Below, in pieces: positions 2,651 through 39,826 of a stretch of DNA of 40,129 nucleotides. Position 1 is the first letter of the stretch. Each line of letters opens with the position of its first letter. The notes beneath the pieces are model-generated. The model was not told where the DNA came from. It was given only the letters and a program-made list of their open reading frames with translations, and made no database searches. The position numbers were made by a program, and so were the translations under genes. The stretch is from a virus: the IMG/VR virus record IMGVR_UViG_3300025102_000082, positions 1-40,129 of that record. The stretch is one strand, 5' to 3'.

Positions 2651-2670
2651 TTTAATCTAATTTAATCTAA
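2651..2670 (+). repeat. Perfect 10-bp tandem repeat at the groEL start
   Basis: TTTAATCTAA occurs twice back to back (2651-2660 and 2661-2670). The last A of the second copy is the first base of the groEL ATG. The repeat occupies the position where a ribosome-binding site would lie, and contains no Shine-Dalgarno core. It may affect initiation, or be a slippage-prone duplication. Confidence 0.6.
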
Positions 2671-4214
2671 TGCAAAACTCACAAGAAATAGTGAAGCATT
2701 TAAATTTTGGCAGCGATGCTCAAAATAAAGTGTTCACTGGTATTACTAAACTCACAAAAGCCGTTAGCTCTACACTTGGAGCTAGCGGTAAATGTGTTAT
2801 TCTGGAAGACTTCATGGGAAGACCTATGATTACAAAAGACGGTGTTACTGTTGCTAACTCAGTAAACCTTCACGATCCAGTTGAAAACATAGGCGCTACA
2901 CTTATAAAAGAAGCGGCTAGAAAAACAGTTAGCGAAGCAGGTGACGGTACAACAACAGCTACAGTTCTTGCTCAAGCTATATTAAAAGAAGCTAAAGACT
3001 ATAAAGGATCTTTACGTGATATTAAAAATGATATTAATAAAGCATACGAAGAAACTATAAAGTATTTAGACAAAGTGTCTATACCTGTTGAAGGTAAAAT
3101 GATAGATCAAGTAGCTGCAATATCTTCAAATAACGATAAAGAGCTTGGAGATATTATAGGTAAAGCATTTAAAAAAGTTGGTAAAAACGGTACGGTTTTT
3201 ATGGATCCAGACGGTGCAGAAGAAACTAGCGTTGAAGTTGTATCTGGTTCTCAGATAAATCAAGGCTTTGCAAATCCTAACTTTGTTACAGATGTTACTA
3301 AACAAAATGTTACACTAGAAAAACCTCTAGTATTATTAGTATCATCACCTATAACTACTGTGAGAAAAATACAAACAGTATTAGAATACGCAGTAACAAA
3401 TAACAGAAGTATACTTATAATAGGTGAACTAGAAAAACAACCTATGAGTGCTTTAGTTATGAATAAAATTAAAGGCAATATTAAAGCTAATGTAGTTGCG
3501 CCTCCAGGATTTAACTTCTGGAAAAAAGACTTTTTAGATGATATTGCTGCAGTAACGGGTGCTACTCATATAAATGAAGAGTACGGCGATGATGTAGATC
3601 TTATTACACCAGATATGCTCGGTGAATGCGAAAGAGCTATATCTGATAGTAAATCAACTGTACTTAAAGTATCTAGCATACCTGATGTTGCTAAAGAAAG
3701 AATTAAGACAATAGAAGATCAACTAAGTTCTAGCGCGCCAAGTTTAAAAACCGAAAAACTACAAGAACGTTTAGGCGTTTTATCAGGAAATGTAGCGGTT
3801 ATAACTGTGGGCGCAAACTCTGATGTAGAGTTAAAAGAAAAGAAAGACAGAGTTGATGACGCAATACACGCTACTAAAGCAGCTATAAAACAAGGTATAG
3901 TTTCAGGTGGTGGTGTTGCTCTTTTAAATGCTGCACAAAAGTTAAATGGTAGTAATGAAGGTGAAAATATATTTATTAAAGCAATGAAATCACCATATCA
4001 AACTATACTTAACAATGCAGGTTTAGAAAACATACCTGAGCCTAGTAAAAAAGGCTGGGGCACAAATGTTGTTACTGGCAAATCAACAAACATGATTAAA
4101 TGTGGTATTATAGATCCAGTGCTAGTAACTAAAACGGCTTTAAAAAATGCCGTGTCTGTGGCAACTACAATATTATCGACTGACTGTGTAATTAATAACA
4201 TGAGAGAACAATGA
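2670..4214 (+). CDS. groEL: Phage-encoded chaperonin GroEL (Cpn60)
   Basis: This 514-residue protein is a group I chaperonin: an ATP-driven ring that encloses and folds substrate proteins in the cytoplasm with a GroES lid. The nucleotide-binding motif DGTTTAT is at 92-98 (D92 matches E. coli D87). The TLGASGK loop is at about 35-41 and KDGVT at about 56-60. RVDDAIHATKAA follows R394, with D397 matching E. coli D398, then GGGVAL and GIIDPVLV near the C-terminus. The apical region retains APPGFNFWKKDFLDDIA. It is shorter than the usual ~545 residues: a segment before the last equatorial helices is reduced and the Gly-Gly-Met tail is absent (it ends NNMREQ). Key ATPase residues appear intact, so it is probably active. 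It overlaps groES by 4 bases; bacterial operons have the opposite order. Confidence 0.97.
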   Translation: MQNSQEIVKHLNFGSDAQNKVFTGITKLTKAVSSTLGASGKCVILEDFMGRPMITKDGVTVANSVNLHDPVENIGATLIKEAARKTVSEAGDGTTTATVLAQAILKEAKDYKGSLRDIKNDINKAYEETIKYLDKVSIPVEGKMIDQVAAISSNNDKELGDIIGKAFKKVGKNGTVFMDPDGAEETSVEVVSGSQINQGFANPNFVTDVTKQNVTLEKPLVLLVSSPITTVRKIQTVLEYAVTNNRSILIIGELEKQPMSALVMNKIKGNIKANVVAPPGFNFWKKDFLDDIAAVTGATHINEEYGDDVDLITPDMLGECERAISDSKSTVLKVSSIPDVAKERIKTIEDQLSSSAPSLKTEKLQERLGVLSGNVAVITVGANSDVELKEKKDRVDDAIHATKAAIKQGIVSGGGVALLNAAQKLNGSNEGENIFIKAMKSPYQTILNNAGLENIPEPSKKGWGTNVVTGKSTNMIKCGIIDPVLVTKTALKNAVSVATTILSTDCVINNMREQ

Positions 4215-4471
4215 AGGCGGTCGGATTATTTATAGTTGTAGAAGAAATAAAAGAAAAGCCTACTAAGACAAAAGGTGGTTTACTTTTAACAGATAAAATA
4301 AAAGAAGATATTAGATACCGCAAGGGTATTATTAAATCTGCTGGAAGTTTGGTCGAAGGTGTTAAAGATGGTGATAGTATATATTACGATAAACACGCGG
4401 GCTTTAACGTAGAAGTAGATGATAAAGTATTTTTAGTTATAAAACAGCATGACGTTGTTATAGTATTATGA
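4211..4471 (+). CDS. groES: Phage-encoded co-chaperonin GroES
   Basis: The 86-residue protein matches the GroES lid of the chaperonin. It has an N-terminal strand (GLFIVVEEIKEK), a mobile loop with the GroEL-binding hydrophobic tripeptide in KTKGGLLLTDK, the strand RKGIIKSAG, then GVKDGDSIYYDK and a C-terminal VFLVIKQHDVVIVL. Bacterial GroES is about 97 residues. The missing length falls between KSAG and VKDGD, where bacterial GroES has the roof hairpin. T4 gp31 is reported to lack that hairpin as well, giving a roomier chamber suited to the capsid protein. Start ATG and groEL stop form an ATGA overlap, and the next gene repeats that arrangement. The identity is firm; the larger-cavity idea is inference. 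Confidence 0.93.
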   Translation: MKAVGLFIVVEEIKEKPTKTKGGLLLTDKIKEDIRYRKGIIKSAGSLVEGVKDGDSIYYDKHAGFNVEVDDKVFLVIKQHDVVIVL

Positions 4472-5710: not shown

Positions 5711-8410
5711 ATGGCTAAACAATCAATAAATATAGGCTCTTCCGCTAATGACGGCACCGGAACACCTTTGAGAGATGCGTTCGATATATGCAACGACAAC
5801 TTTACAGAAATATATGCTGTCAACGGTGGCTCAGCTGCCTTTCCTACATTAGGTTCTGCAGGACAAATATTACAAGTAAACTCGGGTGGAAACGCATTAG
5901 AGTTTGCGGCTGCTTCAAGTGGTGCAACAGATTTAAATGGATTAAGTGATGTAAGTATAGATCTATCTAATGACTCCGCTTATTTTATTAATATACCAGC
6001 TGGACTTTCAGGAGATAGTAAAAATTTAGTTATTGGTGAAGGAGCTGCAAATGGTTTTGTAAACTCAAATACAAGTGTAGTTATAGGTTTTGATGCTTTA
6101 AAAACTAATACTAATCAACTTACGGGTAATGTAGTTGTTGGTACTGAAGCAATGGAAAATGTTACATCAGGTCAAGCAAAAAACTTAGTTGCTATTGGAG
6201 ATAGAGCTGGTAAAGGCGTAGGAAATCCTTTTAATGCTGTTATAATAGGATCAGAAGCTGCAGCTAACAATGATAATGGATATGAAAGTGTTTATATTGG
6301 TAAAGAAGCTGGAAAATCTGCAAACTCTAATTATCAAGTTTTTATAGGCACAAAAGCTGGAGAAAATGCGAATGGAGCAACAAGAGCTGTAGCTGTTGGT
6401 TGGAATGCTGGTTTATCAGCTACGGGCGATGATTTTGTTGCAATAGGGTACCAAGCTGGTAGAAGCAATACATCAAATACTGGTATTATATCAGTAGGAT
6501 ATCATTCTGGTTATTCAAATACTTCTGGTTCAAATAATACAAATGTAGGTTATAGAGCTGGGTATAGCGCCACAACAAATTCTAATAGAACGTATTTAGG
6601 TTATGAAGCAGGAAATTTAAATACAGGAGCGGCAAATACAGGGGTAGGATATCAAGCCTGCAACGGGATAAGTAGTTTTGGAGTTGCAAAAGGTCAAGGA
6701 TCTAACAACACAGGTGTTGGTTATCGAGCACTTCATGCAATGAATGGAATTGGGGCTTCTAGTAATACCGCTGTTGGAACAAACGCTTTATCAGGTGTTT
6801 TAACTGGCGCCAATAATACTGCTTTAGGTAAAGATTCGGGATCAACTATAAGTAGTGGTAGTAATTTAACTGTTTTAGGTTTTGATGCAGAGCCAAGTTC
6901 AAATTCTGCAACAAACGAAATAACATTAGGTAACTCAAGTGTAACCGCGTTAAGAATACCTGGTCTACAATCAGGCGCATCTAATGGCGATGTACTTACG
7001 TTTAATTCTGGAACTGGTAAAATAACACTAGCTGCTGCTTCAGGCGGCGGCGGGGGTGCATCTAGTTTAAATGGTCTTTCTGATTGTTTAGTTGATACAG
7101 CTAGTTTATACGTCGCAGAAGTACCGTCAGGCTTAAGTGGTAATCCACAGAATAACACTATATTAGGTATTGATGCTGGAACAGCTTTAACTACAGGAAC
7201 AGATAATACTTTTATTGGTCATCAAGCTGGAGATTCTTATACAACTGGTATTGATTCTGTAATGATTGGTAATAAAGCTGGTCAAGCTACAAACGGAGCA
7301 CAAAATGTTTTTATTGGAAATCAAGCAGCAGAAAATTCTACAGGTTCTATGCATGTTGCAATTGGTCATAGAGCATCTTCAAGTGGCGGATCTTTAGGAG
7401 TTGTTATTGGTCGTGAAGCTGGATTAAGCAATACTGGGGATCAGGGTGTAATAATTGGCTCAAACGCAGCAAGACAAGGTAATTCAGCTCATAATCATAT
7501 TTCTATAGGTCGTGAAGCTGGATATTCAAATACTTCTGGAGGTGAAAACACAAATATAGGTTATAAAGCTGGATATTCAAATACGACTTCTTCAAACAGA
7601 ACTGCAGTCGGATATGGTTCTTTAGAATTTAACACAGGTAGTCAAAACACTGCGTTTGGTCAATACACTTTAAGAGGAACATCAGGAGCTTCAAGCGGCC
7701 AATTTAATACTGCTGTTGGTTATACCGCTGGTGAAGATATAACTACAGGACAAACAAATAGTTTATTTGGATGGGGAGCTGGTAAAGATATAACAACAGG
7801 TAGTAATAATACTGTATTAGGTTATTTTGCTCAACCATCATCTAATACTGTTTCTAATGAAATTACTTTAGGTAACTCAAGTGTAACATCATTAAGAATA
7901 CCAGGTTTAGACATAGCGTCTGCTTCTACCCTTAGACTACATTTAAAAAATCATACAACTAACACAAGCACGTCTACTATACTAAAAATAGAAAGAGGCA
8001 ATGGAAGTAGCCCAGATAAAGTAATTGGATTTTTTACTACAACTGCTGAAAGAGGCTCTATAACAGTTAATGATTTTGGTACTGCATATAACACTTCTTC
8101 AGATTATAGATTAAAAGAAAATGTAGCAAATATTACTAATGGAATTACTAGAGTAAAACAACTTAATCCTAAAAGATTTAACTTTATAGGTAGCAATCAA
8201 GTTGTTGATGGTTTTTTAGCTCACGAAGCTCAATCTGTAGTTCCAGAAGCTGTAATTGGCGAAAAAGACGCTGTGGACTCAGACAACAACGCTATTTACC
8301 AAGGTATTGATCAAGCAAAAATAGTTCCTTTGTTAACAGCGGCGTTGCAAGAAGCAATAACAAAAATAGAACAGTTAGAAACTAGAATACAAACTTTAGA
8401 AAATAATTAA
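5711..8410 (+). CDS. Tail fibre/spike with C-terminal S74 intramolecular chaperone
   Basis: This 899-residue protein is the likely host-recognition fibre. The N-terminus (SINIGSSANDGTGTPLRDAF, then DNFTEIY) matches a common phage fibre attachment segment. Two beta-roll modules follow, at about 73-420 and 450-733, built from repeats like NTxVGYxAG resembling YadA-type heads. Each opens with LNGLSD and closes with NEITLGNSSVT, and a GGGGG hinge separates them. The C-terminus is a peptidase S74 chaperone: SDYRLKEN places S797 and K802 with the Ser/Lys spacing of endosialidase-type self-cleaving domains. Cleavage before S797 would release about 103 residues, including a terminal coiled coil. It would trimerise the fibre and then be shed. 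Neighbouring small genes may encode partners. Confidence 0.88.
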   Translation: MAKQSINIGSSANDGTGTPLRDAFDICNDNFTEIYAVNGGSAAFPTLGSAGQILQVNSGGNALEFAAASSGATDLNGLSDVSIDLSNDSAYFINIPAGLSGDSKNLVIGEGAANGFVNSNTSVVIGFDALKTNTNQLTGNVVVGTEAMENVTSGQAKNLVAIGDRAGKGVGNPFNAVIIGSEAAANNDNGYESVYIGKEAGKSANSNYQVFIGTKAGENANGATRAVAVGWNAGLSATGDDFVAIGYQAGRSNTSNTGIISVGYHSGYSNTSGSNNTNVGYRAGYSATTNSNRTYLGYEAGNLNTGAANTGVGYQACNGISSFGVAKGQGSNNTGVGYRALHAMNGIGASSNTAVGTNALSGVLTGANNTALGKDSGSTISSGSNLTVLGFDAEPSSNSATNEITLGNSSVTALRIPGLQSGASNGDVLTFNSGTGKITLAAASGGGGGASSLNGLSDCLVDTASLYVAEVPSGLSGNPQNNTILGIDAGTALTTGTDNTFIGHQAGDSYTTGIDSVMIGNKAGQATNGAQNVFIGNQAAENSTGSMHVAIGHRASSSGGSLGVVIGREAGLSNTGDQGVIIGSNAARQGNSAHNHISIGREAGYSNTSGGENTNIGYKAGYSNTTSSNRTAVGYGSLEFNTGSQNTAFGQYTLRGTSGASSGQFNTAVGYTAGEDITTGQTNSLFGWGAGKDITTGSNNTVLGYFAQPSSNTVSNEITLGNSSVTSLRIPGLDIASASTLRLHLKNHTTNTSTSTILKIERGNGSSPDKVIGFFTTTAERGSITVNDFGTAYNTSSDYRLKENVANITNGITRVKQLNPKRFNFIGSNQVVDGFLAHEAQSVVPEAVIGEKDAVDSDNNAIYQGIDQAKIVPLLTAALQEAITKIEQLETRIQTLENN

Positions 8411-8411
8411 A

Positions 8412-8669
8412 ATGTATAAAAACACAATTACATCAGAAAACACACCAGATAGTCATAAAGCAATTATAATAGGCCAAGTAGACGGTCAATTAGCAGAAGC
8501 TGCAGATTCAGAAACTTCAGCAGAGCAATTGCAAATAATTAAAGATCACTTTAAGTGGTTACTATCAAACGATTTTTATAAAGCCGAATGTAGTGCTGAA
8601 CAAGTAAGTGGCATGGAGTCATATTTACCAGCTGATTACAAAAATGACTACGAAGATCTTCCATCATAA
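8412..8669 (+). CDS. Hypothetical acidic protein, 85 aa
   Basis: An 85-residue acidic protein starting MYKNTITSENTPDSHKAIII. It has a helical middle (SAEQLQIIKDHFKWLLSNDF) and an acidic end (DYEDLPS). It begins one base after the tail fibre stop, and its stop shares a base with the next ATG, so it is embedded in a coupled transcript. It has no recognisable domain. A fibre-assembly helper is conceivable from position, but nothing in the sequence shows it. Confidence 0.6.
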   Translation: MYKNTITSENTPDSHKAIIIGQVDGQLAEAADSETSAEQLQIIKDHFKWLLSNDFYKAECSAEQVSGMESYLPADYKNDYEDLPS

Positions 8670-8941
8670 TGTCTAAACTTAATAAAAAATCTATGGCTTG
8701 TAATAAGCCTAGAAGAACTCCTAAACACCGAACTAAGTCTCACGTAGTTAAAGCTTGTTCTGGTGGAACAGAGAAAATTATAAGGTTTGGTCAGCAAGGT
8801 GTTACAACAGCCGGCAAGCCTAAAAAAGGTGAGTCAGCTAAACAAAAAGCAAGACGTAAAAGCTTTAAAGCTAGACACAGAAAAAACATAGCAAAAGGTA
8901 AATTAAGCGCAGCTTACTGGGCTAATAAAGTTAAGTGGTAA
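8669..8941 (+). CDS. Conserved small basic protein, Cys-containing
   Basis: A 90-residue strongly basic protein with conserved-looking blocks: MACNKPRRTPKHRTKSHVVK, then ACSGGTEKIIRFGQQGVTTA, KARRKSFKARHRKN, and the aromatic end SAAYWANKVKW. Similar small basic proteins with a RFGxQG...FKARH...YWANKVKW layout are, to my recollection, widespread beside structural genes in marine phages. Two cysteines (in MACNKP and KACSGG) and several His could bind a metal, but spacing is not a standard zinc finger. It overlaps both neighbours by one base. Function unknown; virion or nucleic-acid association is a guess from charge. Confidence 0.65.
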   Translation: MSKLNKKSMACNKPRRTPKHRTKSHVVKACSGGTEKIIRFGQQGVTTAGKPKKGESAKQKARRKSFKARHRKNIAKGKLSAAYWANKVKW

Positions 8942-9405
8942 TGAGCAAAGACAAAAAGAAGTTTAAAGATACAACCGTAGGTAAGCTATTGTTAGGGGCG
9001 GCTGGTGTAATAAATCCAGCTCTTGGTAATGTCTTGCAAGGCGTTATGTCGCCTAAAGAGGCTATAGCTGAAATAACTAAATCAGATGTGTCTAACGAAG
9101 ATAAAATTAAATTACAACAGCTAATATACGAACAACAAAATAAAGAAATAGAGGCAATAACAACTCGTTGGCAAGCAGACAGTATGTCTGACTCGTGGCT
9201 TTCTAAAAACGTGCGCCCACTAGTTTTAGTGTGGTGTATATGTATATTTTCTTTAGCTGGAATATTAGACAGCGTTGAGTCTATACCTTTTAACATAGGT
9301 GTAACATGGAACGACACTTTCGAGAAGGTTATGATGGCGGTCGTGTTAGCCTATTTCGGCGGACGCACGACAGAAAAAGCTACAAATGTTTTTAAAAGTA
9401 AATAA
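8941..9405 (+). CDS. Holin-like membrane protein (3TM/GTA-type)
   Basis: A 154-residue protein resembling the three-transmembrane holin family seen in marine phages and gene-transfer agents. The N-terminal part has a weakly hydrophobic stretch (GKLLLGAAGVINPALG, about 14-30), then a charged helix (about 40-78) with MSDSWLSKNVRPLV. Clear membrane segments are at about 91-110 and 130-141, followed by GGRTTEKATNVFKSK. Holins form inner-membrane lesions that time lysis and release endolysin; no endolysin gene is visible in this window. I chose ATG 8941, which shares a base with the previous stop, over an upstream GTG at 8935. It is followed by a 57-base gap holding a candidate regulatory motif. 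Confidence 0.65.
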   Translation: MSKDKKKFKDTTVGKLLLGAAGVINPALGNVLQGVMSPKEAIAEITKSDVSNEDKIKLQQLIYEQQNKEIEAITTRWQADSMSDSWLSKNVRPLVLVWCICIFSLAGILDSVESIPFNIGVTWNDTFEKVMMAVVLAYFGGRTTEKATNVFKSK

Positions 9406-9723: not shown

Positions 9724-9934
9724 AAAAATAAGTATAGGCGCAGATTATAAAAATGAAGCAATGCACTACTCCGTAGGTCAACAAGTCTACGGAGGTCATT
9801 GTATTTGTGATATATTGCACGATCAAAAAGACGGATCTTATAATATATATATAGAAAAAAACAATGAAATAATACCTTGGAAGAAATTTAACTCTAACAT
9901 GGCTGTTTCAATTGAGTATAATCTAGAGTATTAA
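9707..9934 (+). CDS. Hypothetical small beta-rich protein, 75 aa
   Basis: I start this gene at ATG 9707, inside the end of the coiled-coil gene, rather than at an upstream TTG at 9698. The protein, 75 residues, begins MAKLIRKISIGADYKNEAMH and continues HYSVGQQVYGGHCICDILHD, SYNIYIEKNNEIIPWKKF, SIEYNLEY. It looks like a compact beta-barrel or SH3-like fold. The pattern VGQQVYGGHCICDIL, a strand turning back on itself, is typical of small barrel proteins. It overlaps the next ATG by one base. The following gene looks co-chaperonin-like, so a shared complex is possible, but nothing proves it. Confidence 0.55.
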   Translation: MAKLIRKISIGADYKNEAMHYSVGQQVYGGHCICDILHDQKDGSYNIYIEKNNEIIPWKKFNSNMAVSIEYNLEY

Positions 9935-10557
9935 TGAAAAGCTTATATAACTTTATTATAGAACCTGAAAATAGCAGGTATAATAATGAAGTAAATATTA
10001 ACGGTAAAAAGCTTATTGTTAACACAACTATGGACGATCACAAGTTTGTTAATAGAGTTGGTATAGTAAAATCAATACCTTTGGTTGGTAAAACAAATAT
10101 AAAAGTTGGTGACAAAGTAATAGTGCATCATAATGTTTTTAGAAGGTTTTATGATATAAAAGGTAGAGAAAAAAACAGTAGTTCATATTTTAAAGAAGAT
10201 ATGTATTTTTGTTATTACGATCAAATATTTTTATACAAGCAAAATAACGAGTGGAAAGCTCCTTTAAACTACTGCTTTGTAAAACCTATACTTAATAATA
10301 AAAAAGACATTATAACGACTGAAAAAGAAAGAAAACATATTGGAGTATTAAAATATGGTAATAAGTCGTTAGAGGCGTTAGGAATAAACGAAGGAGACTT
10401 AATAGGTTTTAACCTTAATAGCGAATATGAGTTTGTTATAGATAATAACAGACTATATCGTATGCAGTCTAAAGACATTACAATTAAATATGAATACAAA
10501 GGAGACGAAGTTGAATATAATCCAAGCTGGGCAAAAGGCTGTGGAAGAACTTATTAA
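9934..10557 (+). CDS. Tandem GroES-like (co-chaperonin-like) protein
   Basis: A 207-residue protein that appears to contain two GroES-type barrels in a row. Repeat 1 (about 1-105) starts SLYNFIIEPEN, has NRVGIVKSIPL then NIKVGDKVIVHHN, and ends MYFCYYDQIFLY. Repeat 2 (about 110-190) starts NYCFVKPILNN, has KHIGVLKYGNK then GINEGDLIGFNLN and ends RLYRMQSKDITIKYE. This mirrors the GroES order: first strand, G-x-V strand, VxxGDxV strand, terminal strand. The bacterial mobile-loop hydrophobic tripeptide is not obvious. It is separate from the true groES at 4211 and precedes the packaging genes, so it may modify the phage chaperonin or be a virion protein using the same fold. Coding status is firm; the fold is inference. 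Confidence 0.6.
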   Translation: MKSLYNFIIEPENSRYNNEVNINGKKLIVNTTMDDHKFVNRVGIVKSIPLVGKTNIKVGDKVIVHHNVFRRFYDIKGREKNSSSYFKEDMYFCYYDQIFLYKQNNEWKAPLNYCFVKPILNNKKDIITTEKERKHIGVLKYGNKSLEALGINEGDLIGFNLNSEYEFVIDNNRLYRMQSKDITIKYEYKGDEVEYNPSWAKGCGRTY

Positions 10558-10765
10558 GGTTGCAAAAGAACCTATAGTTGATTCAGATGATGATATATCT
10601 GCTGATCGTTTAAAAAACGCAGCGGCAACAAAAAAGCTAGCTATATTCGATGCCTTTGAAATACTTTCTCGTATACAAGAAGAAGAAAATATGTTAAATG
10701 ATAAACCTAAAGAAGTTAAAGAACAAAGAGCTTTTAAGGGTTTTGCTGAAGGTAGATCAAAATGA
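10490..10765 (+). CDS. Putative small terminase subunit
   Basis: A 91-residue, mostly helical protein encoded just upstream of the large terminase, overlapping it by 4 bases (ATGA). This position is standard for the small terminase, which recognises phage DNA and feeds it to the motor. Sequence shows helices in IIQAGQKAVEELIKVAKE and DRLKNAAATKKLAIFDAFEI, the latter also suggesting a coiled-coil core. The ATG at 10490 makes it overlap the preceding gene by 68 bases; a TTG at 10511 is an alternative start. There is no clear helix-turn-helix, and it is short for the family (typically 120 or more), so the assignment is mainly positional. Confidence 0.5.
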   Translation: MNTKETKLNIIQAGQKAVEELIKVAKEPIVDSDDDISADRLKNAAATKKLAIFDAFEILSRIQEEENMLNDKPKEVKEQRAFKGFAEGRSK

Positions 10766-12972
10766 GTTACGAACAAACTCTAGTAAAGACACTAAAAGAC
10801 TACATAAAGCCTAAAACATTAAATAAAAACAACAGGTATAAAAAATGGGATTATGGTTATAATGACGAGTACGATATGGTTGTTATATCTAAATCAGGTA
10901 AAATAGATCAAGTAATTGAAATACAAAACCTTAAAATAGCTTTACCTAAACCTGTTGATATAAAAAAATTTAATTCAAATACTTGGGAATATACAGAATA
11001 CCCTAAAGTATTAAAAAGAATAAAGTCTGTTTTTGATTGGGAACAATATCCTGTAGAATTTAAAGAAGAGTGGTATGATTACATTGATAATGAGTTTACT
11101 AGAAGGGAAGAAGGTTTCTGGTTTTATAACAAAAACGTTCCTACTTATGTTACTGGTACTCATTACATGTACTTGCAGTGGAGTAAAATTGATGTCGGTC
11201 AACCAGACTTCCGTGAATCAAATAGATTATTTTACATATTCTGGGAGGCTTGTAAGGCCGATTATAGATCCTATGGAATGTGTTATCTTAAGAACAGACG
11301 TTCTGGGTTTTCCTTTATGGCGTCCGGGGAGTGCGTTAATATGGCAACAATATCAAGCGACTCTAGGTTTGGGATATTATCAAAGTCTGGTCCTGATGCC
11401 AAGAAGATGTTTACCGACAAGGTTGTACCGATATCGGTTAATTACCCCTTCTTTTTCAAACCGATTCAGGACGGAATGGACCGCCCAAAGACAGAGCTTG
11501 CGTACAGAGTACCAGCGAGTAAGTTTACCCGCAAGAAGCTTGAGACCAACGAGAAATTACAAGAGCTCGACGGTCTCGACACCACGATCGACTGGAAAAA
11601 TACCGGTGACAACTCGTACGACGGTGAGAAACTTAAGCTACTCGTCCACGACGAAAGTGGTAAGTGGGAAAAGCCGAACAACATCCTCAACAACTGGAGG
11701 GTTACGAAAACAACGTTAAGATTAGGTAGTAAAATTATAGGCAAATGCATGATGGGTTCAACAAGCAACTCATTAGATAAAGGCGGTGATAACTTTAAAA
11801 AACTTTACTATGACTCAGACGTTACAAAGAGAAATCGCAATGGACAGACTGCTTCAGGATTATATTCTTTGTTCATACCTATGGAATGGAACTACGAGGG
11901 ATATATTGATATGTATGGAGCACCTGTCTTCGAAACTCCGGACAAACCGGTACTCGATGCAGTTGGGGATAAAATAAGACAAGGCGTAATTGACTATTGG
12001 CAAAACGAAGTAGAAGGTTTAAAAAACGATCAAGACAGTTTAAATGAGTTTTACAGACAGTTTCCAAGAACTGAAAGCCATGCTTTTAGAGACGAAGCAA
12101 AGCAATCGCTTTTTAACTTAACAAAAATATATGAGCAAATAGATTATAACGATGAATTAGCTAATTCTAGTATTATATCTAAAGGCTCGTTTCAGTGGAA
12201 AAACGGTGTAAAAGATACTACAGTAGAGTTTATGCCAAATAAAAATGGTAGATTTAAAATATCTTGGGTACCAATATTTGAAATGCAAAACCGTATGCGT
12301 TTAAAAAACGGTGTTAAATATCCTGCTAATGATCACATAGGAGCATTTGGTTGTGATAGTTATGACATATCAGGTACTGTAGATGGTGTAGGTTCAAACG
12401 GTGCATTACATGGACTTACTAAGTTTTCAATGGAAGAAGCACCTTCTAATCAGTTTTTTTTAGAATATGTTGCTAGACCACAAACTGCTGAAATATTTTT
12501 TGAAGATGTGCTTATGGCTTGTGTATTTTATGGCATGCCAATATTAGCAGAAAATAATAAACCTAGACTTTTATATCATTTTAAAAGAAGAGGTTATAGA
12601 GGTTATTCGATGAATAGACCAGACAAGATTTATAATAAATTGTCTGTAACTGAAAAAGAAATAGGTGGAATACCTAATTCATCTGTAGATATGAAACAGT
12701 CTCATGCTGCAGCTATAGAGTCTTATATAGAAAAACATGTAGGGCAAAATGAACAAGGCTACGGCAATATGTATTTTAGTAGAACACTAGAAGACTGGGC
12801 TAAGTTTGATATAAATAATAGAACAAAATTTGATGCTTCAATAAGTTCTGGGCTTGCTATAATGGCTTGTAATAAAAATCTTTACGCGCCAACACAAGAA
12901 AGACAGGTTGTAAATATAAATCTTGGAATAAAAAGATACGACAACAAAGGATCAAGATCAAAAATAATTTAA
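10762..12972 (+). CDS. terL: Terminase large subunit (DNA packaging ATPase/nuclease)
   Basis: A 736-residue packaging motor that binds the portal, hydrolyses ATP to pump DNA into the head and cuts concatemers. A deviant Walker A is at 177-184 (KNRRSGFS, with no GK pair). Walker B is at 293-298 (LLVHDE, catalytic E298), and a coupling-type GST lies at 332-334 in CMMGSTSNSLDKGGDNF. The nuclease half begins near GCDSYD (D532), with further acidic residues toward the C-terminus (SVDMKQSHAAAIESYI). A stretch over residues about 165-318 has much higher GC and different codons from the rest of the gene, although the reading frame is intact. The putative small subunit precedes it and the portal follows 4 bases later. 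Confidence 0.88.
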   Translation: MSYEQTLVKTLKDYIKPKTLNKNNRYKKWDYGYNDEYDMVVISKSGKIDQVIEIQNLKIALPKPVDIKKFNSNTWEYTEYPKVLKRIKSVFDWEQYPVEFKEEWYDYIDNEFTRREEGFWFYNKNVPTYVTGTHYMYLQWSKIDVGQPDFRESNRLFYIFWEACKADYRSYGMCYLKNRRSGFSFMASGECVNMATISSDSRFGILSKSGPDAKKMFTDKVVPISVNYPFFFKPIQDGMDRPKTELAYRVPASKFTRKKLETNEKLQELDGLDTTIDWKNTGDNSYDGEKLKLLVHDESGKWEKPNNILNNWRVTKTTLRLGSKIIGKCMMGSTSNSLDKGGDNFKKLYYDSDVTKRNRNGQTASGLYSLFIPMEWNYEGYIDMYGAPVFETPDKPVLDAVGDKIRQGVIDYWQNEVEGLKNDQDSLNEFYRQFPRTESHAFRDEAKQSLFNLTKIYEQIDYNDELANSSIISKGSFQWKNGVKDTTVEFMPNKNGRFKISWVPIFEMQNRMRLKNGVKYPANDHIGAFGCDSYDISGTVDGVGSNGALHGLTKFSMEEAPSNQFFLEYVARPQTAEIFFEDVLMACVFYGMPILAENNKPRLLYHFKRRGYRGYSMNRPDKIYNKLSVTEKEIGGIPNSSVDMKQSHAAAIESYIEKHVGQNEQGYGNMYFSRTLEDWAKFDINNRTKFDASISSGLAIMACNKNLYAPTQERQVVNINLGIKRYDNKGSRSKII
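11281..11700 (+). other. GC-rich recoded tract inside terL
   Basis: Hand counts give 197 G/C of 420 bases here (about 47%), and 122 of 240 (51%) over 11461-11700. Flanking 60-base lines inside the same gene are near 22-35%. Codons such as CTC, ACC, CGC, GAC and TCG replace the A/T-ending codons used elsewhere. The tract covers the Walker A to Walker B part of the ATPase, and the protein frame remains intact. This is consistent with gene conversion or recombination from a GC-richer relative; a metagenomic assembly chimera is also possible. Confidence 0.75.
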
Positions 12973-12976
12973 ATAA

Positions 12977-15400
12977 ATGGTTAACAAAGCTATAAAAAGT
13001 TCTTTTCCCAGCCAAGCGGTTAGTGATTTAGAGAAAATGACATCTGAGTATGGCGCTAAAGTTGGTAGAGCTATTGAGCATGAGTGGTTTAATAATAAAA
13101 CCGATTATAACGACAAAAACGGATCTGGTAGATATGGTTCGTCTAGAAGAGCTTTTAACTCTCTAAGACTTTATGCTAGAGGTGAGCAATCAGTTAGAAA
13201 ATATAAAGATGAGTTGTCTATTAATGGTGATTTGTCTTATTTAAATTTAGACTGGAAGCCTGTACCTATTATACCTAAGTTTGTAGACATAGTTGTTAAC
13301 GGTATGGCAGATAGATCTTATGATATAAAAGCATACTCACAAGACCCAGCTTCTATAAAAGAACGTACTGATTACGTTACTAAAATAGCTGAAGACATGC
13401 AGTCTAAGCCTTTTAATGATGCTGCTGCTAGCCAATTAGGTGTAGATATATATCAAACAGATCAATCAAAGTTACCTGAATCTACACAAGAGCTTGAGCT
13501 TCACATGCAGCTAGATTACAAACAGTCTATTGAAATAGCAGAAGAGGAAGCTATTAATAGTGTTTTTGATAAAAACAAATATGAATATGTATCTAAAAGA
13601 ATAAACAATGATTTAGTTGTTTTAGGTATTGGTGCTGCTAAAAGCTCTTTTAATAAGGCTGAAGGTATTAAAGTAGAATATGTAGATCCAGCTGATCTTG
13701 TATACTCTAATACAGATTCACCTTATTTTGATGATATTTATTATGTAGGTGAGATAAAAGAAATATATTTAAATGAGCTTAAAAAAGAGTTTCCTGAGCT
13801 AACAGACGATCAGTTAAAAGAATACGGTGGTTATAAAGGCTATAATAATATAGCTTATAAACATAATTCAAAAGCTGAAGAGGAAAACAGTGTATCTGTA
13901 TTATACTTTGAATATAAGACATACGCTAATCAAGTTCATAAAATAAAAACTACAGCCACTGGCGGTAAAAAAGCTATTGAAAAAAACGATACTTTTAATC
14001 CTCCACAAGCAGAAGATTTTGAAAAAGTAGATAGAGCTATTGAGGTTATATACGAAGGTGTTAAAGTAATTGGTAGTAAAGATGTTTTAAAGTGGGAGCT
14101 AAAGAAAAATATGATGCGACCAAAAGCAGATACTACTAAAGCTCAAATGAGTTACGCTATATGCGCGCCGCGTATGTATGAAGGTCGTATTGAAAGCTTA
14201 GTTAGTCGTATGACTAGCTTTGCTGATATGATACAAATAACGCATTTAAAGCTACAGCAAGTGTTATCACGCATGGTGCCAGATGGTGTTTACTTAGACG
14301 CTGACGGTTTAGCTGAGGTTGACCTTGGTAATGGAACAAACTATAATCCACAAGAAGCTTTAAATATGTATTTCCAAACAGGTAGTGTTATTGGTAGATC
14401 AATGACGCAAGATGGTGATATGAATAGAGGTTCACTGCCTATAAGAGAAATAAATACAAATGGCGGTAACAATAAAATAGCCTCTTTAATAAACACGTAT
14501 AACTATTACTTACAAATGATGCGTGATGTTACTGGCTTAAATGAAGCTAGAGATGGTAGTATGCCAGATAAAAACGCATTAGTAGGTATACAAAAAATTG
14601 CTGCTGCTAATTCTAACACAGCAACAAGACACATATTGCAATCAAGCTTGTATATAACCCTAACAATGGCAGAGTGTATTGCGATGCGTGTTTCTGATGT
14701 AATAGAATATTCACCAACTAAAGAGTCGTTTATTAAGACTTTAGGTAAGTTTAATGTTTCTACTTTAGAAGAAATGGCTAACTTACATTTACATGATTTT
14801 GGTATATTTATAGAATTAGCACCTGATGAGGAAGAAAAAGCAATGCTTGAAAATAATATACAGCTTGCTTTAAAATCTAATCAAATAAATCTTGAAGACG
14901 CTATTGATATTAGAGAAGTTAGAAATTTAAAGCTAGCTAATCAATTACTTAAAATAAGACGTAAGAAAAAACAAGAGCTAGACCAACAACAGGCTCAAGC
15001 GAATATACAAGCGCAGAGTCAAGCTAACGCACAAGCAGCTCAAGCATCAGCCGCAGCTGATATGCAAAAGCAACAAGCTCTTACAGAATCAAAAGCTCAG
15101 TTAGAGCAAATGAAGTCACAGCTTGAAATAGCCAAAATGGAAAGAGAAGCTGCAATTAAAAAAGAGTTAATGCAGTATGAGTTTGAAATTAATAAACAGC
15201 TGCAGCAAGGGCAAATAGCTATTGCTAAAGAAAAAGACAAGTTTAAAGAAGATCGCAAAGACGAAAGAACTAAAATACAAGCTTCACAGCAAAGTGAGCT
15301 TATAAATCAAAGAAAAACAAACGCGCCGCCTAAAAACTTTGAGTCCGCAGGTATGGACACATTAGGTGGGTTTGGACTTGAACAGTTTGAGCCGCGTTGA
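12977..15400 (+). CDS. Portal protein
   Basis: An 807-residue protein directly downstream of the large terminase and upstream of scaffold and capsid genes, the usual portal position. The dodecameric portal forms the head vertex through which DNA enters and leaves. The central part contains helical and wing-like segments, for example MTSFADMIQITHLKLQQVLS and the phage-portal-like YYLQMMRDVTGLNEARDGSM near residues 510-535. From about residue 660 a long Gln/Ala/Lys coiled coil runs to about 775 (QAQANIQAQSQANAQAAQAS, then LEQMKSQLEIAKMEREAAIK), consistent with an extended portal barrel reaching into the head. It ends GGFGLEQFEPR. Podovirus portals are often 500-800 residues, so length fits. Confidence 0.8.
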   Translation: MVNKAIKSSFPSQAVSDLEKMTSEYGAKVGRAIEHEWFNNKTDYNDKNGSGRYGSSRRAFNSLRLYARGEQSVRKYKDELSINGDLSYLNLDWKPVPIIPKFVDIVVNGMADRSYDIKAYSQDPASIKERTDYVTKIAEDMQSKPFNDAAASQLGVDIYQTDQSKLPESTQELELHMQLDYKQSIEIAEEEAINSVFDKNKYEYVSKRINNDLVVLGIGAAKSSFNKAEGIKVEYVDPADLVYSNTDSPYFDDIYYVGEIKEIYLNELKKEFPELTDDQLKEYGGYKGYNNIAYKHNSKAEEENSVSVLYFEYKTYANQVHKIKTTATGGKKAIEKNDTFNPPQAEDFEKVDRAIEVIYEGVKVIGSKDVLKWELKKNMMRPKADTTKAQMSYAICAPRMYEGRIESLVSRMTSFADMIQITHLKLQQVLSRMVPDGVYLDADGLAEVDLGNGTNYNPQEALNMYFQTGSVIGRSMTQDGDMNRGSLPIREINTNGGNNKIASLINTYNYYLQMMRDVTGLNEARDGSMPDKNALVGIQKIAAANSNTATRHILQSSLYITLTMAECIAMRVSDVIEYSPTKESFIKTLGKFNVSTLEEMANLHLHDFGIFIELAPDEEEKAMLENNIQLALKSNQINLEDAIDIREVRNLKLANQLLKIRRKKKQELDQQQAQANIQAQSQANAQAAQASAAADMQKQQALTESKAQLEQMKSQLEIAKMEREAAIKKELMQYEFEINKQLQQGQIAIAKEKDKFKEDRKDERTKIQASQQSELINQRKTNAPPKNFESAGMDTLGGFGLEQFEPR

Positions 15401-16645: not shown

Positions 16646-18127
16646 ATGGGATTTAACACATCTTTAGGATTAGGTGGATCATTTTCACTTACTCCACACC
16701 CAACAGCAGATGTTTTGTCTACAAACTATATTAGCTTTGTTGACGGAAGTGCTGATTGGTCACAACAATATCTACCTGAGTTGTACGAGCAAGAAGTAGA
16801 GCGCTACGGAAACCGTACTATCAGTGGATTTTTACAAATGGTAGGCGCTGAAATGCCTATGAGTTCTGATCAAGTTGTTTGGTCTGAGCAAAACAGATTA
16901 CACATTGCATATAAAAGTGCAGGTGCTGTAGATAGTGCTACGAGTGTGCAAGTTGCTGATACAGCAGCTAGTACTATTTCTCTTGGTACTGGATTAAATA
17001 ACGCGTTAAGAGTTGGTGATACAGTTCTTATTACAGACGCTGCTACTGGACTTAAAACAGTAAAATGTTACGTGTCTACTACAGCTGCTACTGCTACGCA
17101 AACTGCTGGTCAAGGTGGAAACAACACAGATGCTACGTGTCTGCCTTATTCTGCTGCACACTTAACTAATGCTGGTTTTGCAACTGATGAGCAAATTAAT
17201 ATATTTGTTTACGGTAAAGAATTTGCAAAAGGCACAGCTAGTCAATCAGGTGAAATCAAGCCACAGTTCCAACAGTATAACAACAAGCCAATAATTATTA
17301 AAGATCACTTTAAAATTAATGGTTCTGATACTGCTAGAATCGGATGGGTTGAGACTACTGACGAAGCTGGACAAGTAGGATATTCTTGGTATTTAAAGTC
17401 TGCTGGAGAAACTAGACTACGTTTTATGGATTATTTAGAAACTTCATTAATTGAAGCTGAAAAAGGAGTTAGCTCTTCTAATATCCATGATGCAGCAGGT
17501 GGTTTAGGAGTAACTCAGCCAGGTGATGTAGGTACAGAAGGTTTATTCTCTGCTATTTCAACTAGAGGTAACGTATTTGAAGATTTAGCTTCTCTTGGAG
17601 ATTTTGACTTATTGTTAAAAAATCTTGACAAGCAAGGTGCTATCGAAGAAAATATGTTATACTTAAACAGATCAATGGCCCTTACTTTTGACGACATGGT
17701 AGCTGGTATCAATGCTAACTATCAAGGTGGTGCTTCTTTTGGAGTATTTGACAACGACGCTGACATGGCATTAAACTTTGGTTTTTCTGCTTTCAGAAGA
17801 GGATCTTACGATTTCTACAAGTCTGATTGGAAATACTTAAACGATGCTGCTGCTCGTGGAGGATTTGGAGACATCTCAGGAGTATTAATTCCTGCTGGAA
17901 CTTCAACTGTATACGATCAGTCACTAGGTAAAAACATGACACGTCCTTTCTTACACGTACGTTACAGATCTTCAGAAACTGATGACCGAAGAATGAAATC
18001 TTGGGTAACTGGTTCTGTAGGACAAGCTAGCTATGTAGGAGATGACTTCATGGAAGTACACTATTTGTCTGAAAGATGTTTAATAGTTCAAGGGGCTAAT
18101 AACTTTGTGTTATTAAAAGAATCATAA
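16646..18127 (+). CDS. Major capsid protein
   Basis: A 493-residue protein after the scaffold gene and before two small surface-protein candidates, the position of the major head protein. It starts MGFNTSLGLGGSFSLTPHPT and has the compact mix of loops and strands expected for an HK97-fold shell protein, with a central Thr/Ala-rich insertion at about 90-170. A conserved-looking C-terminal part includes HVRYRSSETDDRRMKSWVTG and ERCLIVQGANNFVLLKES. The last third uses more C-ending codons (TTC, CTC, TAC) than flanking genes, consistent with high expression. It would form the icosahedral shell and is a plausible main client of the phage GroEL. HK97 fold and client status are inferred. Confidence 0.75.
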   Translation: MGFNTSLGLGGSFSLTPHPTADVLSTNYISFVDGSADWSQQYLPELYEQEVERYGNRTISGFLQMVGAEMPMSSDQVVWSEQNRLHIAYKSAGAVDSATSVQVADTAASTISLGTGLNNALRVGDTVLITDAATGLKTVKCYVSTTAATATQTAGQGGNNTDATCLPYSAAHLTNAGFATDEQINIFVYGKEFAKGTASQSGEIKPQFQQYNNKPIIIKDHFKINGSDTARIGWVETTDEAGQVGYSWYLKSAGETRLRFMDYLETSLIEAEKGVSSSNIHDAAGGLGVTQPGDVGTEGLFSAISTRGNVFEDLASLGDFDLLLKNLDKQGAIEENMLYLNRSMALTFDDMVAGINANYQGGASFGVFDNDADMALNFGFSAFRRGSYDFYKSDWKYLNDAAARGGFGDISGVLIPAGTSTVYDQSLGKNMTRPFLHVRYRSSETDDRRMKSWVTGSVGQASYVGDDFMEVHYLSERCLIVQGANNFVLLKES

Positions 18128-31461: not shown

Positions 31462-34400
31462 ATGTACGAAATAAACGGAAATCAATATAGCTTAGAAGAT
31501 CTTCAGAAATCAGCTAAAAATTACGGTATGAGCTTTGAAGAATATATGCAAAACATGAAAGAAAAAGGCTTGCGTGAGGTAAAAAAGCAAGATACTACTG
31601 ATGAAAATTTTCAACAAGACGGTGTAGCGGGTGCGGATGCGCCGTCGGAAAGTGCAGCACCAGAGAGTATGGACTTAGACTCGGATCTTGGTTCTTCGGC
31701 TTTTACAGGAGCTGATCCATTTGCGTTACAACAAACTCAAGATATATTAGATACTGATATTTCAGGCGAAAAAGTGCAAAGCACTGCACCTGTGTATGAA
31801 GAAAAAATAGATCCGCCTAAAAAACAAACAAAAAAACAAGAGTTAAATAACACTTTAGGTGTTAATGTTTGGGCAGACGGTAGTATAGAACAAAGAGCAC
31901 AGCAAAACCAAATATTAAATAATTTTGCTGCAAAAGAAGGTAAAAGTACTATATTTCCTGATTATGAAAACATGTCTACTATGAGAGATAGAACTACTCT
32001 TTTAGGTCAATTTACAAATATACCAAAATTTGGTGATTTTGAAGTTGATGAAAACGACGTGTACCAACAAATACAACAACTTGATGCAAGTTTGAAAAGA
32101 GCAAGATCAGATAGACCAAGTAATTATTCTAATTTTTATGCTATTGATTATGAAAATGACGATACTTTATTAGAAAAATTTCCTGGCTTAAACATAGTAA
32201 ACATACAAGACGCTAGACTTCAAAGAGAAAATACAGTAACAAACCAAGCTAAAAATAATTTTAAGTTTACACCTGAAGGTATATTAAAAAGTGGTAAAGT
32301 ATTTTTAACACCTATTGAAAAACAAATATCTGATTTAAATGACAAATTAAGAACAGAAAAAGATTCTTTTAAAATTGAAAATATTAATCAGCAAATTGAA
32401 GGTTTAAAAGAAAAAATAAATAGCGGAGAAGATCAACTATATGACTTTACAACTGGACAGTTAGTTAACTATGATCAACTAAGCGAAGAACAGAAAGATC
32501 AAGGTGATTTAATAAACGCTAAAGCTCAAGATTTAGCTGATAACACAGAAATAGATGATCTAAATAATCAACTTGTAAATGCCTATTCTAAAGTTGTAGG
32601 TTTAGCTGGTGATGTATCTACTGTTGGCATAGGTAATGTACGAAAACAAGAATTTTCTGTTGAAGGATTAATTAGTTTTGTTGCGGGTGGTTCAGATCCT
32701 TTAGGCGAATATGACAGCCCATTAAGCACAAAAGCTGATTTTAATAAAATAAATAACATAGCAGAAAAAGGTATAATACCTTCAAACATTTCAAAGTTAG
32801 CAGGTAGTCATCCGGTTGTTACAGCTTATAACAAGGCTCTTGAGCAATACATTGTTTTAAACAAGGCTATACAGTTAAATCAAGATCCTTTAACTAAAGA
32901 AGCTCCTGGATTTTTTGATTTTGATTTTACAGCTATAAAGCAAGGCACTTTGGAAGCGCTTGGTGCAACATCAGCACAAGCTTCATCAAAAAATAGAGTT
33001 GCAATAAACAATGCTTTTATTGATAAATTAAAAGAAATAGATTACGTTCGTACAACACAAGACGCTTCAGGCAAACCAGTTGAAGATGAAAGATTTATAT
33101 CTGAAGCATTAGAGGAAAGTGGTGCAGAATTAGTTTCTGGTCATTTTCCAGCTTTAGCTAAGTTTATAGGTGAGCTTTATTTAACTAGGAAAGTAAGTGG
33201 TAATGTTATAAACAAAACTGGTAAAGTTATAAAAAATACTATAAACGGCTCAACTTTTGTTAAAAAGAGTAGAACAGCAAATAAAGTTGTACAACAAGCA
33301 CTAAAAACTGGCGTTTTTGCAGCTGAAGAAACAGCTATATTTAAACTTACTACAGAGCTTACAGAAGGTGTAACTACAGCGCGTGGTAGTGCTAAAAATT
33401 TTGATCCTAAGTTTGCTGCTTCGTTAGGTGTAGGTAATTCTTTTACAGATATGCTAATGAAAAGCAATAGAGTAGGTAAGTTTTTTAGTCCCTTTATGCA
33501 GTATATAAGTAAATCTAATTTTGCAACTAATCAAATAAATAGAGCTGTAGGCGCTGGTGCTGGTGCAACTTCGTTTGAATTTGCTAAGTTTATGACTACT
33601 AATTATGAAGATTATGAGTTTAAAACAAAAGATTTTTTAGCTGAATTTTATAAATTAAGAATTTTTGGAGCTAGTCAACAAAATCCTTTTGTAAGAGGTG
33701 GCTTCATAAGAGACATGAGTAACGATATATTAAGAATGCGAAACAGAACTGAAGGATCTGTTAAAGCAGCTAAATATTTTGGTGAAGAACATAAAAAATT
33801 TGAAAATGTAGGAACAAAAGATTTTGAAGGTGTTTTAGACAATCTTGCTTTGTCGGCTCAAAAAAAGCAACAAGAAATACTAGATAATCCTACACTTAAT
33901 ACAGAACAAAAAAACGAACTTTTAACAGAATTAAATAACAACTACGAAATATTATCAACTCAAGCTGAAATAAACCTAGCCAAAGCTGAAATAAAACTAA
34001 ATAGAGCTTCTGTTGATAGATATGGTGATAAAACGTTTCCAACAGATAAAGATATATATGTAATATCTAGAAAGTTTAGAAACGGTAATAAGTTAACGCC
34101 TGGAGAATCTGCTAAGTTAGCTAAAATACCAGAAGCTAAAATGCTTTTAGAGCTTGGTATAAAGCCAAATACAGATCAATACAGAGCTTTTAAGAGCACT
34201 TTTGACAGAAACACAGCTATAGATAATATATTAAATAATTCTGCTGAATATAAAACATATAATAAAGCTGATAGAAAAGCTGCTTATGATTTTATTACTA
34301 AAAAAGTTAATTTATTTTTAGACATACAACGTCAAGAAAGTTTAGCTGTACCTAGTAAAGATATTGCTTCAATGAAAAAAGAGTATGAGCCTTACAAAGA

Positions 34401-37400
34401 AACAGGTGACTTATATTTAAAACTACAAGAAAGATTAGATAATAGCACTGCGACTCTTTATGGTAAAAAAATACAAGAAGCACAAGAAAGAGCTAAAAGA
34501 ATAGGCGCTGACGCTCCAATAGAAGCACAAACACCTCAAGAGTTTCAAAAACTTTATAATGAAAACTTTCCAAATAAACCTGCTGACGCTACAAAAGAGT
34601 TAGGATTTTTTACTACAAACGGCCAAAGAGTAATAAATAAAGAAGAAGCTTTAAAACAAAGAAGTGTTACAGACGCGTTACACGAAGATATACATTTTGT
34701 TTTGAAAGGTAGTTTAAAAGATGTTTCAGGAAATGTAACAACTGAAGGTGTAAAAATTATTGATGACATATTAGATAGACTAACGCCTTCTCAAAAACGT
34801 TTATTAAACGAAGAAGTTGCTGCTAGATATGACGTTTCACAACCTAAAGAAAAATGGTATGAAGAAAACTTAACTGTATTAGGCGAGCTAATTAATGTAG
34901 AGAGAATACAATTTAGCGAAAAGTTAGGATCTGGACTTACAGGCTTAATACCAGGACTTAGAAAAGCTGGATTTAAAAACTTAGAAATTAGCTCAGAAAC
35001 AGGTGAAAACATGTTTGAAATGCTTAGAGGTTTTGCTAAAGGCGAAAAAGCTGCTGAAAATACAGCTGTTAAGTTTATAGAAGATAATTCTGAAAAAGCC
35101 GCTAAAGAAGTTTACAAAGAAGAAAATCCAAGTTTATCTGCATCTAGAAAAGAAAAAGTAAATGATTTAGGTGAAGATCTTGTTAAAATTAAAAACAAAG
35201 AAACAGAAAGACAAAAAGACTTTTTACAAGCTATAAAAAGGATGCGTGATCAAGGCAAAAATGAAATTGCAGATCGCATGGAAGCTGATTTAGGTAAAAT
35301 GGGTGAAAGAGAAGGTAAAGTAATATCTGACATTGTAGATCAATACAATGAAACTATTGGTAATGTTGTACTTAGATTAAAAAGTAAAAATCCAGCTATA
35401 TTCGAAACACCTACTTATCAAAGAAAAGAGTTTTTAAGAGAAGATGGCGGTTTAAATATGGCAAAAGTTATAGAAGCTATTGTTGAGCAAACAAGACCTG
35501 AGCTGATTAAGCATGTTAAAAACTTTGATCCAGCTAAAAACGAAGATCTTGATGCTTATATAAATTCTTATTTAGAAAGAAAAATAGGTACAGCTACATC
35601 AAAGAAAAACTTTAAAAGAGAAAGATTTGAAGATACTATTGAACGAGAAGATGGTACTGCTAGAGACTTTGAGGTTTCGGGTAATATAGAAGATGCTATT
35701 GATCTAGGTTTTAAAAGATCTGCATACGAAAGACCCAAATCTGTTATAGCTGAAGAACTTACAATAGGTGGTAAAAAGTTTGTTGATCAATCTTTAGAAG
35801 ATTTTATAGAAACAAATACTTTTGAAATATTTGAAGGAGAAAGACCAGATGTTTTTGAAAAAGGCTTTCAATTGTTTGTAAAACAAGCTGGCCAAGAAAA
35901 AGCTTTTAAACCAGTAAAAAACAAACTAAAAAATTTAAATAGTTTTTTACAAGAAAATCATCAAACATTATTTGGTAGTAAAAATCTGCCTATAGGTGTT
36001 TTAGTGCAACTTGAAAGAAGATTAGCTCCAGAAGATAAAATATTTACTAAAGTTAAAAAACGCTTAACTACTCAAAAAGAAATAGACGAAGCTATAAATA
36101 AAGGCGAAGAGCTATACGTTGAAAATGAAAAACAAGGACCTACTGTCTACGAAAGATTAAAACCATCACCTGAACAAGTTAGAGAGTTTTTTAATCCACC
36201 TGCTGTTACGGCTGAAGGAAAAAGATCTGGTCTAAAAGGTACTAGAAAAGATGCTTTTGTAAACGCTATAACTTTTACTTTAACTAAAGAAAAGTCTCCT
36301 GGCGTAATGAAAGCTATAGATATGACTACGCAAGAAATAGCTAAAGCTTCGCAAAAGCTTATTGTAGATCCAAATATTGATTTTTCTAGAAGTAGAAAAG
36401 AGCAGAGAACAATGCTTACAGAGCAACGTAGGTTATTTAAAGAGTTATACGAAAGTCAAGGTGATAAATCTTTACCTCTTGAAGATGCTTTAGTTGATAG
36501 ATTTTCTGAAAAAATACAACAAGGTATAGATAAAGATTTTAGCACTAAAAAGATTTTAGATGATGCATACCAAGTGGCAAGTAAGTTTTTAGTTACTAAC
36601 GAATCTAAAATAGCTTTACAAGAAATAATAAATGCTAGTGCTAAAAAATATGATGGTATTAATAAAAAATCATATTTAGAAATAGTAAGTAAACTAAGAG
36701 AGCTTAGCGATACTGAAACTAAAACATTAGGTTTTGAAGCTAGTAAAGAATTGTTAGAAAATATTAACGCAAAACCAGACGGCTTTAATATAAAACAGCT
36801 TGATAGATTTGAAATGGCAGACGTTGTTTCTAGAAGAAGTTTTGATAAAGATTATAAAAACTTAACTGACTCTCAAAAAGAGCTTGTATTAAAAGAAATG
36901 AGAGCTCAAAAACTTTCGCCTGCTTTTGAAACAAAAAAAGAACAAATTGTATCTTGGATTAAAAACCACTCTAGACAAATAAGAACTTTTAGAGGATTAC
37001 CTTTTATAAATAGAAACGATCAATTTGTTAGAGAAGTATTAAAAAAATCTGGCATAGATATTAGTAAGTTTGGAATAAAGCTTAGCAAAAACAAACAAGG
37101 TAAAAACATAATAACTGTAGACGGAGAAAAAATTGATGGCTATTTAGAAACTGAATTTATTAAAAGAAACTTTGAAAATTCTAGATTAGCTATTGAAGCT
37201 GAAGCTCAACAAGCTAGAGAGCATATGTTAGATCAAGTTGAATATTTTATTGAAACTGGTCAAGTTGAAAAAGGTAAAGCATACATGAAGCTTATGTTTG
37301 TAGATCAAAGAGGTGTTGGTAGAAAAGTATCTAGACCTGGACTTCAAATATTAGGACCTAAAGGTGAAATATTAAAAGGTAAAAACGAGGTTATACTAGA

Positions 37401-39694: not shown

Positions 39695-39826
39695 ATGCCA
39701 AAAGACGCATGTTACCACAAAGTAAAAAAAAGATATAAAGTGTTCCCATCAGCTTATGCTAGTGGTGCTATAGCTAAGTGCCGTAAGGTCGGTGCTAAAA
39801 ACTGGGGCAATAAAAGTAAAAAGTAA
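39695..39826 (+). CDS. Small conserved basic protein (43 aa)
   Basis: I start this gene at ATG 39695, after the giant gene has ended, not at an upstream in-frame ATG inside it. The 43-residue product begins MPKDACYHKVKKRYKVFPSA and continues YASGAIAKCRKVGAKNWGNK with a SKK end. The motif DACYxKVKxRYKVFPSAYASGA...CRKVGAKNWG is, as I remember it, conserved in marine phages and large algal viruses. Two Cys might pair. Its stop shares a base with the next start. Function unknown; the basic charge resembles the small proteins near the left end. Confidence 0.6.
   Translation: MPKDACYHKVKKRYKVFPSAYASGAIAKCRKVGAKNWGNKSKK

Follow-up and report, generated by a model that had tools for sequence, protein, structure and literature searches.

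The window analyzed here, a single 40,129-base record of a marine virus from IMG/VR, was read as encoding a group I chaperonin system dedicated to the phage, in a podovirus lineage with Flavobacteriia hosts, comprising GroEL, a one-domain GroES, and dES, a tandem two-domain (Cpn20-like) protein. The probability of this reading was put at about 0.75. On its predicted structure, dES is a second co-chaperonin made of two fused GroES units; it was missed by an earlier note on this DNA. What the analysis adds is a divergent GroEL accompanied by two predicted lids, a one- plus two-domain layout otherwise known from chloroplasts. The finding bears on why some phages carry a whole chaperonin and on why chloroplasts use fused lids.

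The groEL-groES locus

The groEL gene (2670..4214, + strand) encodes a phage group I chaperonin of 514 aa, and groES (4211..4471, + strand) encodes a one-domain co-chaperonin of 86 aa. The stop codon of the former and the start codon of the latter overlap in the sequence ATGA (4211..4214, + strand), through which the translation of the two genes may be coupled; the ORF after groES begins at 4468 and overlaps the groES stop. The coordinates, the strand, both protein lengths, and the 4-base overlap proved exact. The earlier note's identification of a phage-encoded GroEL/GroES pair was also borne out, as both proteins matched their Pfam (above the cut-offs) and PHROGs families. For GroEL, these were Pfam Cpn60_TCP1 across residues 28-510 (198.8 bits; cut-off 34.3) and PHROGs groEL (E=1.6e-135); for GroES, they were Pfam Cpn10 across residues 7-85 (44.7 bits; cut-off 21.1) and PHROGs GroES (E=1.3e-11). 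The description of such pairs as rare in phages held for isolates, in which a groEL match was found in 282 of 50,697 records (many of the 282 being redundant and some plainly bacterial), but one query of IMG/VR yielded 122 virus contigs. Rfam and tRNA scans gave no match. A Bacteroidota-type promoter pattern was uninformative, with seven matches versus 3.1 expected and none upstream of groEL.

Gene order was compared across related phages. All 104 related virus loci that were read had groES directly downstream of groEL with an overlap of 1-20 nt, well beyond what chance would give; some of these loci are overlapping extracts of one contig, and divergent relatives (GroEL 52-57%) are included. 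The 80 virus contigs having a GroEL 76-100% identical to that of the window all featured groES after groEL, overlapping by 1, 4 or 7 nt. The groEL-first order was also present in Elemovirus, in ctfjg026, and in Maribacter phage Panino, where a 45-aa ORF separates the two genes; phi38:1 and immuto have groES first, i.e. the bacterial order. The reversed order that had been pointed out is present, but it was overstated: groEL-first is a trait of the phage lineage, annotated in Elemovirus, and not a peculiarity of the window contig. Gene order is an already known sort of variation; divergent marine virioplankton GroELs, whose gene order correlates with their phylogeny, have reportedly been described. 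Because the groEL-first phages all fell on one side of a branch in the GroEL tree (support 85, not starred), a single flip of the order in phages is possible.

The one-domain GroES

The AF2 model of the window GroES had a pLDDT of 88, and its best PDB fold matches were GroES/Cpn10 structures. The Cpn10 domain and a mobile loop bearing a hydrophobic triplet (GGLLL) place the protein in this family; G23 and L24 of the loop were invariant in 35 sequences. The roof (E. coli G44 to G62) has 8 residues in the window, a length shared by 67 of the 68 distinct sequences of the lineage. It has 17 residues in E. coli, 10 in T4 gp31, and 12 in Flavobacteria and in most members of the likely host phylum; over 37 bacterial sequences, it had 12 residues in 24 and 16-18 in 13. 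Thus, the hairpin is short, as had been noticed, but the loss amounts to about 4 residues compared to the likely host phylum, not the 9 suggested by E. coli.

The mobile-loop segment had 28 residues in the window and 27-28 in the lineage (68 distinct sequences); bacteria have 25-26, and gp31 has 30. The gp31 likeness that had been proposed was borne out by a short roof together with a longer mobile loop over the 68 distinct sequences. Kinship with gp31 was not found: the two proteins are 19% identical, and the likeness is limited to the lengths of loop and roof. In gp31, the longer loop accompanies a chamber that is only 8% larger, and the missing roof results in a wider opening (PMC6318259). 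By analogy, a gp31-like effect of the window GroES on the chamber is plausible. T4 gp31 and RB49 CocO offer a further parallel in that help with capsid folding is presumed here as well; T4 differs, however, in using the host's GroEL.

The GroEL protein

The window GroEL is 39% identical to that of E. coli. It has the full-length Cpn60 domain and the ATP-site residues of a group I chaperonin: 14 of 14 positions checked were conserved, and D52, D87, D398, and the GGG loop were kept in 27 of 27 lineage GroELs. Judged from these residues, ATPase competence is the best explanation. A C-terminal tail of the GGM type is usual in group I chaperonins, but it is not essential. Its absence, reported in the earlier note, was confirmed and is lineage-wide; 6 residues follow the position of E. 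coli V521 in the window, 5-12 in the lineage, and 4-12 across phage relatives, against 21-26 within the Bacteroidota and 20-30 in bacteria outside that phylum.

The earlier note had not mentioned changes at the ring-ring interface and on the apical binding surface. Y203 was replaced by N or H, and L234 by Q, in 27 of 27 lineage GroELs; from established GroEL mutagenesis, we take these residues to lie on the apical surface that binds clients and GroES. In the window protein, the salt bridges D83-K327 and R197-E386 were lost, and deletions mapped to E. coli positions 104-106, 428-430, 432-434, and 465-469, which lie at or near known contacts between the rings. Positions invariant in bacteria were retained at a fraction of 0.48 in the apical domain versus 0.68 in the equatorial domain. 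When compared to general drift, neither the apical nor the inter-ring substitutions were significantly enriched (Fisher p 0.16 and 0.14, respectively); the salt-bridge losses (p 0.02) were the sole significant category. Because no other single category reached significance, altered ring stacking is offered as a suggestion only, with single or re-arranged rings being conceivable.

The predicted tandem co-chaperonin dES

The gene for dES (9934..10557, + strand) encodes 207 aa and was assigned using a match to phrog_13932, “co-chaperonin GroES” (1.9e-24), the fold match of its AF2 model, and homologues having Pfam Cpn10. The model, made with 63 sequences, had a pLDDT of 84 and a pTM of 0.79. Its best PDB fold match was Cpn20 (7ekq_R; E=3e-5, 205 columns, TM 0.55), followed by chain Q of 7ekq (Chaperonin 23) and then by single Cpn10 chains; the best 35 PDB fold matches were co-chaperonin chains throughout. 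Two head-to-tail GroES-type domains were found, on the predicted structure only. In domain 1, the hydrophobic triplet L27-I28-[LVI]29 is followed by N30 (97-100% hydrophobic in the 63 sequences). Domain 2 has a short, variable loop and lacks a conserved mobile loop.

The window dES had no Pfam Cpn10 match; its homologues in phi46:3 and phi38:1 passed that threshold. A profile search against PDB sequences found no co-chaperonin, and the hhalign comparison of dES with GroES, in which domain 2 was aligned, gave a probability of only 40%. Because the sequence-profile searches were weak, the kinship rests on the fold match, the PHROG, and the better-scoring relatives. A C-terminal extension of 23 residues (10486-10557) is conserved (KYEYKGDEVEYNPSWA..) and is absent in isolates; an ORF at 10490-10765 begins inside it in another frame. 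Recoding in the dES genes of two records (L171 and L172), considered for their internal stops, was rejected in favor of natural ends and tblastn run-on. In a literature search of partial coverage, no paper describing a tandem co-chaperonin in phages was found. Database records already label the dES gene “co-chaperonin GroES”.

Co-occurrence with groEL and groES

Relatives of dES are located at, or about one gene before, terL in phi38:1, Elemovirus, Panino, and ctfjg026, with phi46:3 more distant. Nineteen virus contigs extend 12.5 kb or more upstream of dES, and 18 of them carry groEL there on the same strand. Of the 77 phage records with a dES match, 68 are elemo phages and 7 are of the phi38:1/Calle type, the other two being ctfjg026 and Panino; a representative of each type was found to carry groEL. 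The one-domain GroES was also present in 5 of 5 dES-bearing phages and in 8 of 8 groEL-bearing virus contigs checked. In Cellulophaga phage phi46:3, both lids are present and groEL was not matched; Gundel lacks all three. Hence, dES can occur apart from a phage GroEL. The co-occurrence of the lids, together with the case of phi46:3, suggests that GroES and dES belong together and that a lid-only state also exists, which may act on the host's GroEL as T4 does.

A different phage type had been considered for the clade with GroELs of 76-80% identity, in whose flank dES and terL were apparently absent; it was rejected after a 77-kb record was found to have dES 10.8 kb downstream and the same genome plan. 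A 22,212-base record (L131) carries dES and, in the 15.7 kb upstream, neither groEL nor a Pfam-detectable groES, which may reflect natural loss or another gene place. The Panino GroES (L170:3982-4245) is annotated “hypothetical protein”, although Pfam Cpn10 was matched at 36 bits; a single sentence of the paper on this phage mentions homologues of GroEL and GroES (PMC11590407).

Comparison with known systems

Elemovirus and ctfjg026 resemble the window in having groEL first and then groES, dES upstream of terL, no GGM tail, and an 8-residue roof. Their GroELs, however, are only 35-36% identical to that of the window, and the groEL-groES pair of Elemovirus is on the strand opposite the structural genes. 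The terminase of ctfjg026 (L084) is 65% identical to the window's, and its GroEL only 35%; its chaperonin either diverged fast or came from another source. Cellulophaga phage phi38:1 (Pervagoviridae) likewise has GroEL, a one-domain Cpn10, and dES before terL, but its groES precedes groEL with one gene between them.

Chloroplasts pair Cpn10 with the tandem Cpn20, and the two most likely assemble into hetero-oligomers of seven-fold symmetry (PMC5780408); one-domain and tandem two-domain lids are likewise found there within one system. Unlike Cpn20, the phage dES lacks a conserved mobile loop in domain 2, and it is probably an independent fusion. The phage chaperonins EL, OBP, and AR9 are also virus-encoded GroEL-like ATPases, but they are co-chaperonin-independent, with a similarity to GroEL of only about 25% in the case of EL (PMC9598537). 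The presence of two co-chaperonin genes argues against such a mode of working for the window system.

Origin, selection, and alternative explanations

A tree was built from 81 GroELs; its 27 rows from the window lineage formed one clade (starred support of 99) outside the bacterial clade (starred support of 98), and a union of this lineage with Bacteroidota was rejected (p-AU 9.1e-7 and 1.7e-5). Five phage groups have dES beside terL, and all of their GroELs were on one side of a branch (starred support of 99); four of these groups are long branches, and the internal detail is unsure. Against seven relatives, dN/dS was 0.055-0.126 for groEL, 0.046-0.138 for groES, 0.035-0.185 for dES, and 0.061-0.090 for the terminase, which shows purifying selection on groEL, groES, and dES. 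Given its own deep clade, the rejected union, and the low dN/dS, the window GroEL appears to be an old, functional phage chaperonin. The contrary account, in which a host groE operon was recently captured and is now decaying in the phage, could draw on the lost tail and the partly lost roof. It was ruled out by the tree, the AU test, and dN/dS values far below 1, and it sits poorly with an intact ATP site and with reading frames that are open in relatives; we give it next to no weight. The earlier note had named capture from a single recent host clade with simple degeneration as the outcome that would refute it, and this fails, as the changes in tail and roof are common to the closest relatives.

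Two further alternatives concern the role of the system. dES might be no lid but a protein of the head or of packaging that is built on two GroES-type barrels, leaving groEL-groES as the whole chaperonin. The place of its gene within the packaging module, directly at terL or one gene earlier, fits this notion, as do the lack of a conserved mobile loop in domain 2 and of a Pfam Cpn10 match in the window copy. We nevertheless hold it to be unlikely in view of the uniformly co-chaperonin identity of the best 35 PDB fold matches, the loop triplet kept in domain 1, the relatives that pass Pfam Cpn10, and the linkage to groEL in 18 of 19 long contigs. Rather improbable is a service mainly to host proteins (stress tolerance or metabolic take-over) instead of virion proteins: although viral chaperonins from the Southern Ocean have been proposed to support growth at low temperature (PMC8407431), the chaperonin genes here sit among structural genes on one strand, and dES is fixed beside terL across phage families.

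The proposed machine

In the favored two-lid system, GroEL and its cognate one-domain GroES would be translated from the same mRNA, and dES would be supplied from the head/packaging module as a second co-chaperonin. The GroEL rings would bind unfolded phage proteins, most likely late head and tail proteins, and would be capped by GroES and/or dES; virion proteins are thus probably what the machine folds. With its short roof and longer loop, the lid may be more spacious or more open, as for T4 gp31. The polar apical-surface changes could lead the ring to prefer phage lids or clients to those of the host, and the changes at the ring-ring interface could weaken or re-arrange ring stacking. A tentative and rather doubtful extension is a mixed seven-domain lid of three tandem dES and one GroES (2+2+2+1) on the phage GroEL ring. 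If true, a virus would have independently reached the chloroplast Cpn10/Cpn20 solution, perhaps to offer capsid proteins a chamber that is asymmetric or more open. Elemovirus, phi38:1, Calle, and Panino are cultured lineage members, and phi46:3 provides a natural comparison case; the ideas of a mixed lid and a bigger cage are directly testable.

Genome surroundings and host

The neighborhood of groEL-groES is a phage structural module on the + strand. The terminase large subunit (10762..12972, + strand; phrog_6681, 5.2e-163) is the second gene after dES and is followed by the portal protein (12977..15400, + strand; phrog_6547, 9.4e-144). A virion structural protein of 493 aa (16646..18127, + strand; phrog_13704, 8.4e-92) occupies the position of the major capsid protein and is a candidate GroEL client. 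Terminase matches were confined to phages of Flavobacterium, Cellulophaga, Maribacter, and Tenacibaculum, or unassigned phages, and the host is therefore probably a member of Flavobacteriia.

Between groES and dES lie an 899-aa tail fibre with a C-terminal Peptidase_S74 intramolecular chaperone (5711-8410, + strand), in which motifs of the N-T-x-[IV]-G type are repeated, and a holin-like gene (8935-9405, + strand). Small, very basic, lysine-rich proteins are encoded at 1099-1347, 1684-1854, 2005-2304, 8669-8941, and 39826-40080, the last being DUF5872 (Pfam 1.8e-13); they are possibly DNA-condensing virion proteins. A 2742-aa protein (31462-39690) with an HEDIH (HExxH) motif, for which there was no Pfam match at E 0.01, is likely a virion or ejected protein. 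A 124-aa protein (408-782) has an HERLH motif and weak matches to metallopeptidase families (DUF6782, phrog_87), and the small protein at 788-1096 has one EF-hand/dockerin-like calcium loop (DMNKDGKIT) that scored under the Pfam cut-off.
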